Shown here one piece after another: positions 2,274-23,295 of a DNA stretch of 64,000 nt. The translations under genes were made by a program, and so were the position numbers. Below the pieces are notes generated by a model, which saw only the letters and a program-made list of their open reading frames with translations, made no database searches and had not been told where the DNA came from. This stretch comes from Roseomonas sp. CECT 9278. Lineage in GTDB: Bacteria; Pseudomonadota; Alphaproteobacteria; Acetobacterales; Acetobacteraceae. Location of the stretch: NCBI RefSeq assembly GCF_918698155.1, contig NZ_CAKKLX010000017.1, positions 1-64,000 on the forward strand. Reading direction: 5' to 3'. Positions within the stretch are counted from its first letter, which is position 1. The number at the start of each line of letters is the position of its first letter.

Positions 2274-2276
2274 GTG

Positions 2277-2693
2277 GCGCCAGACGGCCTGTAAGCCGGG
2301 TTCTGTCGCACCCGTTGCCGGGCACGGACGGCCATTCCTCTGGAACCCGCATCGCTGCGGGCTTCGCGCGGCCAACCCGGGCGGAAGGGCGGGACCGCCC
2401 CTGCGTCAACGCGTTGCCGCGCCTCGCCGTCCGCCCCTATTCGGCCTTGCTCCCGGTGGGGTTTGCCGTGCCGCCGCCGTTGCCGGAAGCGCGGTGGGCT
2501 CTTGCCCCACCGTTTCACCCTTGCCCGCAGGCCTTGCCCCGGGGGACAAAACGTGCGGGCGGTCTGTTCTCTGTGGCACTTTCCCTGGGGTCGCCCCCGC
2601 CGGCCATTAGCCGGCACCGTAGTCCCGTGGAGCCCGGACTTTCCTCCAGCCCGCGATCGCTCGCGGACCAGCGGCCGTCCGGCCGTCTGACGC
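2277..2693 (-). ncRNA. rnpB: RNase P RNA, bacterial class A
   Basis: This is the catalytic RNA of ribonuclease P, which matures tRNA 5' ends. Read on the minus strand it contains the near-invariant 5' block GAGGAAAGTCCGGGCTCC and, near the 3' end, ACAGAACCCGGCTTACAG. The two ends form helix P1: 13 bases at 2681-2693 pair with 13 bases at 2277-2289, with only one G-U wobble. The length of about 417 nt and the GC-rich variable helices fit alphaproteobacterial class A RNAs. Open frames across this stretch are artefacts of its high GC. Ends are set by helix P1 and are accurate to a few bases. Confidence 0.97.
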
Positions 2694-20181: not shown

Positions 20182-21146
20182 CCCGCCGCGCCGCGCTCGC
20201 CGCCGCGCTGCTACTGCCCGCCGGCGCCCGCGCGCAGGCGCCGGCCTGGCCGAACCGGCCGATCACGATGATCGCACCGCTCGCCGCCGGGTCCTCGGTC
20301 GATATCCTGGCACGGTTGGTGGCCGAGCAATGGTCGCAGCGCCTGGGCCAGCCGGTGCCGGTGGAAAACCGGCCGGCGGCGAACGGCAACCTGGCGCTGA
20401 GCCAGGTCGCGCGCGCGCCGGCCGATGGCTACACCATCACCGTGACCGGGCAGACCTCGGTCGCCTTCAACCCGGTGCTGTACGGCACCATCCCGTATGA
20501 CCCGCTGCGCGACTTCGCCTATATCGCGCGCATCGCCGGCATCTCGAACGCGCTGGTGGTGCGGACCGCCTCGCCGATCCGCTCGCTGGCGGAATTGCTG
20601 GCGGCGGCGCGGGCGGAACCCGGCAAGCTGACCTATTCGTCGGGCGGGGTCGGCACCACGCACCACATCTCCTCGGCCATGCTGGCGCAGCAGGCGCGGA
20701 TCGATGTGCTGCACGTGCCCTATCGCGGGGCGCCGCAGGGCATCCTGGCGGCCCAGAGCGGCGAGGTGGACTTCGCCTACTTCAACATCTCCACCCTGCT
20801 GCCGGGCATCCGGTCCGGCGCCTTCCGGCCACTGGCGGTGACCTCGGCCGAGCGTTCGCCCTTCCTGCCCGACGTGCCGACCATGAAGGAACTCGGCTTC
20901 CCGGACTACGAGATGACGACGTGGGTGGCCATCGCCACCGTGGCGGGCGTGCCCGCGCCCGTGCTGGCACGCATGGTCGAGGTGACGAACGCCGCGCTGG
21001 GCGACCCCGCGGTGCAGCGGCGCCTGGTGGAGCTGGGCTTCGAACCCCTGCCGCCGATCCCGCAGCCGGAGATGCTGGCCTTCGTGCGCGGCGAGAAGGA
21101 ACGCTGGGAGCCGATCATCCGCGCGACGGGCGCGCGGCGGGAATAG
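20178..21146 (+). CDS. Tripartite tricarboxylate transporter substrate-binding protein (Bug family)
   Basis: The 322-residue protein has a twin-arginine-like signal peptide ([20 protein letters not shown]), then the Bug signature WPNRPITMIAPLAAGSSVDI, PVENRPAANGNLALSQVARA and DVLHVPYRGAPQGI. Bug/TctC proteins are periplasmic receptors that capture carboxylates and related acids for TctA-TctB permeases. The GTG start overlaps the stop of the PHP-like hydrolase (GTGA), so the two are one operon. No TctA or TctB is nearby. The ligand cannot be read from sequence. Confidence 0.92.
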   Translation: MTRRAALAAALLLPAGARAQAPAWPNRPITMIAPLAAGSSVDILARLVAEQWSQRLGQPVPVENRPAANGNLALSQVARAPADGYTITVTGQTSVAFNPVLYGTIPYDPLRDFAYIARIAGISNALVVRTASPIRSLAELLAAARAEPGKLTYSSGGVGTTHHISSAMLAQQARIDVLHVPYRGAPQGILAAQSGEVDFAYFNISTLLPGIRSGAFRPLAVTSAERSPFLPDVPTMKELGFPDYEMTTWVAIATVAGVPAPVLARMVEVTNAALGDPAVQRRLVELGFEPLPPIPQPEMLAFVRGEKERWEPIIRATGARRE

Positions 21147-21153
21147 CGCGCGC

Positions 21154-21675
21154 TCAGGCGTCCTTGGCCGGCTTGCGGCGGAAGGCATCGAGGCTGACCA
21201 CCTGCGCCGGGGCGGGCGGTTCCGCGGATTCCGGCGGGGCGGCAGCGGGGGCGTCCTCATCCGGCGCGTCGTCGGCAAAGGTGGGCAGGTCGGCGCCGGT
21301 CACCGGGAAGCGCAGGCCGAAGCGCACCTGCGGGTCGTGGAACATGGTCAATGCGCCGAACGGCACCACCAGGCGGGACGGCACGCCACCGAAGAACAGC
21401 GTGACCGCGAAGCGCTGCGCCGCGCGGTCGACCTGCAGGTCCTCGAACTGGTGCTGCACGACGATGGTGATTTCCTGCGGATAGCGCGCCTTGAGGTGGC
21501 CCGGCACCGTGGTGCCCGGGTGGTCGGTGCGGAAGGTCAGGTAGAAATGGTGTTCGCCCGGCAGGCCATGGGCCGCGGCGTGTTCCAGCGCGCGGATCGC
21601 GACATCGCGCAGCGCTTCCTCGGCCCAGGCGTCATAGGGCATCAGGCTTTCGGGCGGGGCGGCGTTGTCGCTCAT
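21154..21675 (-). CDS. sspB: ClpXP adaptor SspB, alphaproteobacterial type
   Basis: SspB tethers ssrA-tagged polypeptides to ClpXP for degradation. The product (173 residues from the ATG at 21675; an ATG nine bases earlier is possible) has the SspB fold blocks EHHFYLTFRTDHPGTTVPGH, YPQEITIVVQHQFEDLQV and RFAVTLFFGGVPSRLVVPF. After an acidic/Pro linker it ends in VVSLDAFRRKPAKDA, the ClpX-docking tail of the alpha-type adaptor. It is immediately downstream of ssrA on the same strand, about 40 bp from the end of the tmRNA coding piece, so tag and adaptor genes are physically linked. Confidence 0.95.
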   Translation of the reverse strand: MSDNAAPPESLMPYDAWAEEALRDVAIRALEHAAAHGLPGEHHFYLTFRTDHPGTTVPGHLKARYPQEITIVVQHQFEDLQVDRAAQRFAVTLFFGGVPSRLVVPFGALTMFHDPQVRFGLRFPVTGADLPTFADDAPDEDAPAAAPPESAEPPAPAQVVSLDAFRRKPAKDA

Positions 21676-21714
21676 GGGGGCCATCTACGCATGGATCGGG
21701 CGAATGCCAAGGGA

Positions 21715-21990
21715 AGTGGGGGGCTTCTGTTGCCCGGTGCCCCCCGAACCGCGCTTACCTATCTCTAGGCAGCGAGCGCCACGGTCTCGCGACCGTTATC
21801 GTTGGCACTTGTGATTTGGTCCGATGACGGCGGTACCATGCCGGGCAAAAGACGGATCTTTACCGCGCGCGTCGAGCCTGTTTCGCCCCCCTCCGCCGGC
21901 CACGATACTGGCCGGGTGATTGGTGGAGGCGCCGGGTACCGCCCCCGGGTCCGCAACGCTTATTCCATACGCCGTTTATCGCCATAGTCA
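21715..21990 (-). ncRNA. ssrA: Two-piece (permuted) tmRNA
   Basis: tmRNA rescues stalled ribosomes and adds a degradation tag. Read leftwards, the acceptor piece comes first: a T-arm with stem CCGGG/CCCGG and a 7-nt loop, then CGCCTCCACCA ending at 21921. A segment of about 30 nt (21920-21891) is expected to be excised. The coding piece starts GGGGGCGAAACAGGCTCGAC at about 21890; its first seven bases pair with CGCCTCC of the acceptor piece (one G-U). The resume codon GCC at 21806 opens the tag ANDNGRETVALAA, stop TAG at 21765. The coding piece ends in a 7-bp hairpin (21718-21724 with 21739-21745). A 6-bp palindrome at 21987-22000 marks the upstream edge. Outer ends are approximate. Confidence 0.95.
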
Positions 21991-22125
21991 CCGAGGTGAC
22001 ACGACGGATATAGGCGAAGGCGCGACGGATTGCGAGACGCGATTGGTGCCGCCCCGCTGCGGTGCCGACAATCCGGCCGCGGCGGTGGCGTATCGCGCGC
22101 CGGTCAGTCTGCGGCGTGCCGAAGC

Positions 22126-23295
22126 TCAGCCCTGGCCGTCGCGCGACAGCCCGCGTTCGACCACGCGGGCATAGAGCGCGGCGCCATACGGGATCGCCTC
22201 GTCATTGAAGGCGTAGCGCGGGTTGTGCGGCATCGCGCCATCGCCGTTGCCGACATGGATATAGGCGCCGGGGACGCGCTCCATCATGAACGAGAAGTCT
22301 TCCGAGCCCATGCCCGGCGGGTTGTCGCGCGCGACGCGCTCGGCCCCGACCAGCTCCGCCGCGGCCTCGGCATAGGCGTCGGTCTGCGCGGGGTCGTTGA
22401 TGGTGGGGGCGAAGATCAACCGCCAGTCGGTGGTCGCGCTGGCGCCGAAGCCGCCGGCCACACCCTCGGCCACGCGGCGCATCGCCGCTTCGATCTGGCT
22501 GCCGACCTCACGCGTGAAGAAGCGCGCGGTGCCGGAGATGGTCGCGGTCTCGGGGATGACGTTGTAGGCCTCGCCGCCGATCACCTTGGTCACGCTGACC
22601 ACGGCCGGGTCGCGCGGAGACAGCGTGCGGCTGACGATGGATTGCAGCGCGCTCGTGATGTGGCAGGCCGCCAGGACCGGGTCGATGCTGACTTCCGGGC
22701 GCGCGCCGTGCGCGCCCTTGCCGCTGACCGTGATGTCGAAGAAGGCGCCGCCGGCCGCGGTCGGGCCAGGGCGGATGCCGTAGTGGCCGACCGGCATGCC
22801 GGGGCGGTTGTGCATCCCGTAGATGGCGTCGCACGGGAAGCGTTCGAACAGGCCGTCGGCCAGCATGGCGAGCGCACCGCCGCAGCCTTCCTCCCCGGGT
22901 TGGAAGATGAAGTGGACGATGCCGTCGAAGTTGCGCGTCTCGGCCAGGTAGCGCGCCGCGCCCAGCAGCATGGTGGTGTGCCCGTCATGGCCGCAGGCAT
23001 GCATCACGCCGGGCGCGGTGCTGCGATGGGGCATGTCGGCCGGTTCCTGGATGGGCAGCGCGTCCATGTCCGCGCGCAGGCCGATGGCGCGGTTGCCTGA
23101 GCCGTTGCGGAGCACGCCGACCACGCCGGTGCCGCCGACGCCGCGATGCACCTCGATGCCAAGGGATTCCAGTTCGCGCGCGACGACCTCGGCGGTGCGG
23201 TGCTCGGCCATGCCGAGTTCCGGGTGGGCGTGCAGGTCGCGGCGGATGTCGGTCAGCGCGGCGTGGTGGCGGCGGATGGCATCGAGGGCGGACAT
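22126..23295 (-). CDS. M20 family amidohydrolase (hippurate hydrolase-like)
   Basis: The 389-residue protein is an M20D-type amidohydrolase of the IAA-amino acid/hippurate hydrolase group, which cleaves N-acyl amino acids. It shows RRDLHAHPELGMAEHRTAE at the N-terminus, GLRADMDALPI, GVMHACGHDGHTTMLLGAAR (metal Cys and His, about 105-112), FIFQPGEEGCGGA (catalytic Glu), and the C-terminal GSEDFSFMMERVPGAYIHVGNG. The start ATG at 23295 fits the family N-terminus. It stands alone between thyX (divergent) and ssrA. The acyl substrate is unknown. Confidence 0.93.
   Translation of the reverse strand: MSALDAIRRHHAALTDIRRDLHAHPELGMAEHRTAEVVARELESLGIEVHRGVGGTGVVGVLRNGSGNRAIGLRADMDALPIQEPADMPHRSTAPGVMHACGHDGHTTMLLGAARYLAETRNFDGIVHFIFQPGEEGCGGALAMLADGLFERFPCDAIYGMHNRPGMPVGHYGIRPGPTAAGGAFFDITVSGKGAHGARPEVSIDPVLAACHITSALQSIVSRTLSPRDPAVVSVTKVIGGEAYNVIPETATISGTARFFTREVGSQIEAAMRRVAEGVAGGFGASATTDWRLIFAPTINDPAQTDAYAEAAAELVGAERVARDNPPGMGSEDFSFMMERVPGAYIHVGNGDGAMPHNPRYAFNDEAIPYGAALYARVVERGLSRDGQG

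Follow-up and report, generated by a model that had tools for sequence, protein, structure and literature searches.

The window, by which we mean the whole 64,000-nucleotide stretch analysed here, carries a permuted ssrA gene followed on the same strand by sspB. We read the pair, with a probability of about three in four, as an ordinary alphaproteobacterial tag-and-reader neighbourhood, in which SspB would read the ANDN front of the tag, ClpX would read its ALAA end and sspB would have its own promoter. This reading joins the anatomy of the locus, the linkage of the two genes, their conservation and the association of one tag motif with SspB to a predicted binding of the tag, ClpXP delivery and promoter use. 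The window is one more ordinary case, and the wider pattern revealed by the genome surveys matters more.

The ssrA and sspB genes of the window

The features of the locus are listed below in the order in which they are met on the minus strand.

21715..22039, minus strand: ssrA, permuted two-piece alpha tmRNA (22039-21715 is the extent of the Rfam covariance model; alpha_tmRNA RF01849 at 247.5 bits, curated score 50; tmRNA_permuted RF04321 at 148.1 bits)
22008..22013, minus strand: CTATAT, -10-like box at the ssrA 5' end (putative promoter; UAUAU is also in the Rfam consensus)
21921..21929, minus strand: CCTCCACCA, at which the acceptor piece ends (3') and after which the intervening segment comes (sequence and RF01849 alignment)
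21765..21806, minus strand: tag reading frame ANDNGRETVALAA, with resume codon GCC at 21806 and stop TAG at 21767-21765 (ARAGORN)
21706..21711, minus strand: CTTGGC, promoter-like -35 of sspB at the ssrA 3' edge (alignment of relatives)
21683..21688, minus strand: GTAGAT, promoter-like -10 of sspB, 7 nt before ATG 21675 (sequence; leaderless transcript predicted)
21154..21675, minus strand: sspB, alpha-type SspB adaptor, 173 aa from ATG 21675 (Pfam PF04386 at 134.2 bits, E 5e-39, cut-off 27; phmmer to solved chains)
21448..21450, minus strand: codon of SspB Q79 (numbered on the 176-aa frame); in the class at large, charge at this position tends to oppose the charge of tag residues 5-7
21172..21201, minus strand: VVSLDAFRRK, conserved C-terminal tail, likely ClpX-docking motif (column conservation)

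ARAGORN called a permuted tmRNA at 22015-21674 on the minus strand, with the tag ANDNGRETVALAA. The permuted order was apparent from ARAGORN, from the sequence and from RF04321, since the internal CCA end CCTCCACCA precedes the coding piece. Cutting into an acceptor and a coding piece is established for alphaproteobacterial permuted tmRNA, whose two-piece form was reportedly described by Keiler, Shapiro and Williams in 2000. The window's ssrA would be transcribed and cut in the same way, and at a stalled ribosome the tmRNA would add Ala-ANDNGRETVALAA. Both ssrA and sspB gave a single match in the window's genome, and the control genomes behaved as expected, with the ssrA model found in Caulobacter only and SspB in both E. 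coli and Caulobacter. Upstream of ssrA on the same strand lies an M20 peptidase gene, while beyond sspB a TctC-type gene converges from the other side. Elsewhere in the window there is a class A RNase P RNA gene (2276-2690, minus strand, 273.5 bits).

The open reading frame that matches PF04386 runs from 21684 to 21154 and, read from its upstream ATG at 21684, is 176 aa long. The start is likely to be ATG 21675, because ATG 21684 falls within the promoter-like -10 box. A phmmer search matched the window SspB to the solved chains 2qas, 2qaz and 2nys with E values of 4e-33 to 1e-32; we take the first two to be Caulobacter SspB and the third an Agrobacterium relative. The protein has a linker and a C-terminal tail with VVSLDAFRRKP in conserved columns. 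Across 129 aligned SspB from genomes with ANDN tags, conservation in the tail reached 84% at V162, 90% at L165, 91% at F168 and 94% at R169. Docking to ClpX is the likely role of this tail, as in other SspB proteins.

Other forms of ssrA were met in the genomes surveyed. Two or more ssrA matches exceeding the family cut-off were present within a single genome in G273 (three places), in G295 and in G081 (second place). The ssrA genes of L207 and L221 (f37), L225 (f74), L433 (f59) and L502 (f146) are 525-907 nt long and contain a long extra segment. A group I intron was considered for the long genes of f37 and others and rejected, as scanning the five loci gave no Rfam intron match that attained the gathering score.

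Gene order and the expression of sspB

The preliminary description had placed ssrA and sspB on the same strand about 40 bp apart. This was confirmed, with both genes on the minus strand and 39 nt between the end of the ssrA model and ATG 21675. A survey of 140 Acetobacteraceae genomes, of which 138 have ssrA and 137 have sspB, revealed linkage in 117 of the 137 genomes with both genes. The sspB domain follows the ssrA model on the same strand at a distance of 0-500 nt in 93 of these 137 and at up to 6 kb in a further 24. The genes are far apart on one contig in 4/137 and on different contigs in 16/137; sspB upstream of ssrA or on the opposite strand within 6 kb was found in none of the 137. 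A class-wide draw of 387 genomes gave ssrA in 370 and sspB in 356. For the 83 comparable genomes, namely those among the best 150 rows of both the ssrA and the sspB tables, the order was kept in 76 (65 + 11), with the genes far apart in 4 and on other contigs in 3. We also found sspB inside 114 of 148 further ssrA loci, nearly all of which were cut 1.5-1.6 kb either side of ssrA (one was wider and two were cut around sspB). The gene order is not unusual: it is an ordinary, widespread alphaproteobacterial neighbourhood of which the window is an ordinary member. The order is old and probably goes back to an ancestor shared by much of the class. Papers characterising the Caulobacter adaptor may well report the linkage already.

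When the window was aligned with 12 selected relatives, a promoter-like element became apparent before sspB, consisting of CTTGGC, 17-18 diverged nucleotides and TAGAT, with an ATG 6-8 nt further on. CTTGGC is altered in four of the aligned sequences and TAGAT in three, and one relative omitted from the alignment (L095) has a different spacer. We scored the linked loci with CTTGAC-N-CTATAT, which we take to be the alphaproteobacterial promoter consensus, and the pattern reached p<=0.05 at 21 of 211, where about 10 were expected by chance. The next start codon is 6-8 nt away at 13 of these 21, nearly all of them close relatives of the window. Since 21/211 is about twice chance and 13 of those loci have a start 6-8 nt on, the element is probably real in the window's clade and no class-wide rule. 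A similar S. meliloti promoter consensus is among the material quoted in PMC2245857. A generic scan of 21100-22400 found no sigma-70 promoter. The element suggests that sspB has a separate, leaderless transcript from its own putative promoter at the ssrA edge. Read-through from ssrA would be possible and unneeded; the element, conserved in close relatives, suggests that sspB need not depend on it.

Alternatively, sspB might be expressed as part of an operon, mainly by read-through from the ssrA promoter, with tRNA-type 3' processing freeing the sspB mRNA and with tag and reader made together. The shared strand and short gap in most genomes compared fit such an arrangement, as do the 190 of 211 linked loci with no significant promoter-like site and the scan of 21100-22400, which found no terminator-like site between the two genes. 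We nevertheless regard an operon as doubtful, given that in the window's clade the CTTGGC-N17/18-TAGAT element stands 6-8 nt ahead of the ATG, and that the ssrA model and the sspB domain are 0.66-5.4 kb apart in 24/137 genomes of the family.

The adjacency could also be inherited gene order with no functional meaning, since many gene pairs stay adjacent by descent. The two genes do lie apart in some genomes that keep both, including 4 in the family survey and the f44 genomes G044, G229 and G358, where no sspB open reading frame was found within about 1.5 kb of ssrA and sspB is located elsewhere. The relevant part of a 2007 S. meliloti study notes that both tmRNA flanking genes are conserved in alphaproteobacteria, without naming sspB there, and calls a functional association uncertain (PMC2245857). 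Against a neutral relic, the linkage persists in the 0.7-1.1 Mb genomes of f87 (sspB in the same locus in 21/21 genomes with ssrA above the cut-off, of 22 searched), and the ssrA and sspB products act in one pathway according to the portion of PMC8138137 that treats them. We therefore consider a neutral relic unlikely and retain the tag-and-reader neighbourhood as the preferred reading.

Tag front, tag middle and SspB

The preliminary description took the window's tag to be unusual and its middle, GRETV, to be the part that goes with SspB, and the comparison supported neither view. ARAGORN gave a tag in 70 of 80 named loci whose sspB is closely related (Roseomonas, Neoroseomonas and others). 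The tag is of the form ANDNxRE in 56 of these 70 and identical to ANDNGRETVALAA in 5, so it is typical of the clade. For the class-wide comparison we took 75 short tags, a single one from each sspB-bearing family represented in the first 197 genomes, and kept long-tag families out. Residues 1-4 hardly vary (A, N and N at positions 1, 2 and 4 in 75/75, D at position 3 in 73/75) and the final two residues are AA in 75/75, whereas residues 5-8 are hypervariable, with an entropy of 2.8-3.1 bits. The tag middle thus appears to be mostly a variable spacer across the class. In the E. coli tag AANDENYALAA, as described in the relevant part of PMC8512704, the front AANDENY binds SspB and ALAA binds ClpX. 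By our reading of the window, an SspB dimer would bind the N-terminal ANDN module, the ClpX pore would grip the C-terminal ALAA, and the five residues between would serve mainly as a spacer of variable sequence, though tag residues 5-7 may make a charge contact with SspB residue 79.

The suggestion that tag and reader are co-inherited gained support from families without sspB, where the N-x-N motif of the tag front is mostly gone. Among 338 genomes of 142 families, N-x-N is present in 317/322 genomes of sspB-bearing families and in 2/16 of sspB-lacking families. As the family majority it is found in 134/137 against 1/5 (Fisher p 1.1e-5), in 134/137 against 1/3 when only permuted tmRNAs are counted (p 0.003), and in 134/136 against 1/5 without f145 (p 4.7e-6), a family that weakens the contrast slightly. 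The stricter ANDN start gave 114/137 against 0/5 families (p 2.2e-4). The families with ssrA and no PF04386 match in the sampled genomes are f25 (3 genomes), f39 (5), f83 (5), f47 (2) and f68 (1); for 6 of these 16 genomes (G251, G285, G294, G316, G356 and G378) the absence of sspB was inferred by elimination from the full set of positives. Their tags start with ANES, ANDK, ANDD, AKSD, AKRD, AKNN, ADDN or AEDN, and f25 also has ANDN in one genome and ANNN in one other. Four sspB-less assemblies (G115, G157, G170 and G347) were counted with their sspB-bearing family, and dropping them left the N-x-N family table unchanged. Because only five families lack sspB, two of them with one-piece-type tmRNA, the contrast rests on few independent losses.

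Three sspB-bearing families, f92, f140 and f145, lack an N-x-N majority. In f140 (L428 and L494) the tag is ANNYVAPR[VA]ALAA, with no N-x-N, and the SspB matches are the weakest of the class-wide draw (E 1e-16 and 2e-19). In f145 (L345, L346 and L347) the tags are ANDYAL[PH]DMR[VL]AA, with no N-x-N in 3/3 genomes, and the good SspB match of G297 (E 9e-39) makes this family a plain counter-example to the motif rule. G297 was among 22 of 172 genomes first left out when 150 were sampled, and was added back afterwards. Taken together, the family comparison supports the N-x-N tag start, and not GRETV, as the part that goes with SspB, and a simple reading would be that SspB maintains the tag front.

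Two further observations concern families at the margin of this comparison. L191, L192 and L193 (f68 and f47), which are placed in the class, have a one-piece-type tmRNA with the tag A[DE]DNFEY... and no sspB match; the tmRNA type is an ARAGORN call in L191 and L192 and a pattern hit only in L193. In f129 (G166, G313 and G374) neither ssrA nor sspB was detected, the absence of sspB being by elimination in two of the three.

A nominal covariation of charge leaves room for some reading of the tag middle by SspB. E79 occurs in 28 of 242 genomes of the first set; tag residue 5 is basic in 19 of these, and residue 6 in another 4. Where SspB 79 is K or R, as it is in 17 genomes, tag residue 5 or 7 is always acidic, although 8 of the 17 carry Roseomonas-type tags, which have the acidic residue 7 with Q79 too. 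The charge prediction was written down before the further genomes were fetched, several of whose families overlap the first set; 8 of the 148 further loci gave no usable tag. In the further genomes, tag residues 5-7 are net positive in 8/9 genomes with E79 and in 24/99 others (p 2e-4, kinship ignored), and two of the four R79 proteins face negative tags and two neutral ones. Phylogenetically independent pairs from 350 genomes gave 10.8 opposite against 1.9 same charge (p 0.011), a result that is not significant after correction over 83 columns; no column survives it, and position 103 ranks higher than 79. We regard the tracking of tag residues 5-7 by SspB residue 79 as a lead, from a weak uncorrected signal. 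No tag contact is claimed for residue 79, because the profile alignment to E. coli SspB was too weak to map it onto the contact residues there (hhalign E 7e-5, probability 63). A pairing of E79 with loss of tag D3 was considered and dropped, since E79 also occurs with ANDN tags having Arg at position 5 or 6. In f87, whose tags are rich in Arg and Lys, SspB residue 120 has changed from V or A to E in 20/21 proteins.

That GRETV is specifically co-adapted with the SspB of its clade, and would be read poorly by other alphaproteobacterial SspB, is quite improbable: the opposite charges at residue 79 speak for it, but the window's Q79 is neutral and is shared by 92/108 further genomes with very different tag middles, the pair test is lost on correction, 1/9 E79 proteins faces a net negative tag, and Q79 is retained in 6 of the 25 genomes whose tag residue 5 is basic.

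Compound tags and known systems

The class also contains much longer tags. Of 337 tags from 141 families, 293 have 15 residues or fewer and 44, in 23 families, have 20-40 residues. Two or more N-x-N motifs are present in 0/293 short tags and in 32/44 long ones. Drawing one long tag per family at random and shuffling its residues (2000 draws), we found N-x-N after residue 4 in 20.5 of 23 families on average, against 9.1 when shuffled, and no draw reached the observed value; with ARAGORN's own calls only, the figures were 15.5 of 18 against 7.0, again with 0/2000. The 337 tags comprise 296 of ARAGORN's own and 41 that we picked manually among pattern hits or alternative frames, and the 44 long tags 35 and 9, with a shorter ARAGORN call replaced in G130, G004 and G110. 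The hand patterns demanded N among residues 2-4, which slightly favours N-x-N. An ARAGORN artefact was considered and is unlikely for most long tags: they repeatedly show a resume-codon context of TATAAAT or a similar sequence, as well as an ending in -AA.

Many long tags resemble a complete tag with another one after it, for example ANDNVAFVAANDNTVVEVAVAA in f94, ANDNFVACNDNFADEAVAIAA in f44 and ANRNRRQKVAANLNRKAVAKKAA in f87, and some look like three tags in a row. Long tags were found in f94, f117, f138, f154, f44, f87, f5, f18, f12, f115 and others (loci such as L472, L475, L504, L514, L350, L330 and L486), and they recurred in further f44 and f87 members fetched separately. In f95 and f123 some long tags lack the first motif and keep the internal one intact. 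In f92 and f113 a second motif is not clearly present, so the tandem description does not cover every long tag. The window's own tag is not tandem, with 13 residues and one N-x-N motif.

In f44 the second motif is NDN in 14 of 17 long tags; among the other three, one has NSN, a second lacks a motif at that place and the third has a different layout. The NDN is spelled with differing synonymous codons, which suggests that selection acts on the peptide, with the reservation that the 14 were selected for their NDN. On a tree of SspB with 350 leaves, the long-tag state changes 7 times, against a mean of 44 when shuffled, so long tags may have several origins. All 23 long-tag families have sspB, which alone proves nothing because only 5 families lack it. 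As a tentative proposal whose chances fall just short of even, the compound tags of these 23 of 141 families would be repeatedly arisen, peptide-selected, multivalent SspB degrons, mostly built of an N-terminal and a second module with an N-x-N motif in each, with SspB tracking the adjacent charge (Q79 changing to E where tags become basic) and with tag and adaptor, often neighbours, co-evolving.

Which part of a tag is read by an adaptor is commonly worked out by mutating a single model tag. Here the losses of SspB in nature, together with hypervariable middles and compound tags, amount to a class-wide natural experiment on tag reading, and the linked genes of a receptor and a very short ligand make a compact system of co-evolution. 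If compound tags are indeed multivalent ligands of the SspB dimer, they would provide ready-made degrons and a means from nature of testing adaptor avidity.

Compared with the alphaproteobacterial two-piece tmRNA described by RF01849, the window's ssrA has the same gene form, CCA-ending acceptor piece, ANDN tag start and AA tag end. We saw no structural difference; only the tag middle differs, and it is variable class-wide. With the Caulobacter and Agrobacterium SspB chains (2qas, 2qaz and 2nys) the window protein shares a homologous core, and with 2nys a homologous tail as well, with no difference of architecture seen. E. coli SspB is likewise an adaptor for ssrA-tagged proteins, although its sequence similarity to the window SspB is marginal (the hhalign match above is local). 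Unlike in the window, sspB of E. coli stands after sspA, at 3.376 Mb, and the 8-kb region inspected there contains no ssrA. In the parts of the literature searched, tmRNA database papers included, we found no mention of N-x-N repeats in natural tags; one of these database papers, PMC11915505, gives a total of 11,946 permuted tmRNA sequences. The closest counterpart is the engineered tag AANDENYAANDENY, which was studied in E. coli (relevant part of PMC8512704). It has a doubled SspB-binding motif like the natural long tags, but it is man-made and lacks ALAA, whereas nearly all natural long tags keep their -AA end.
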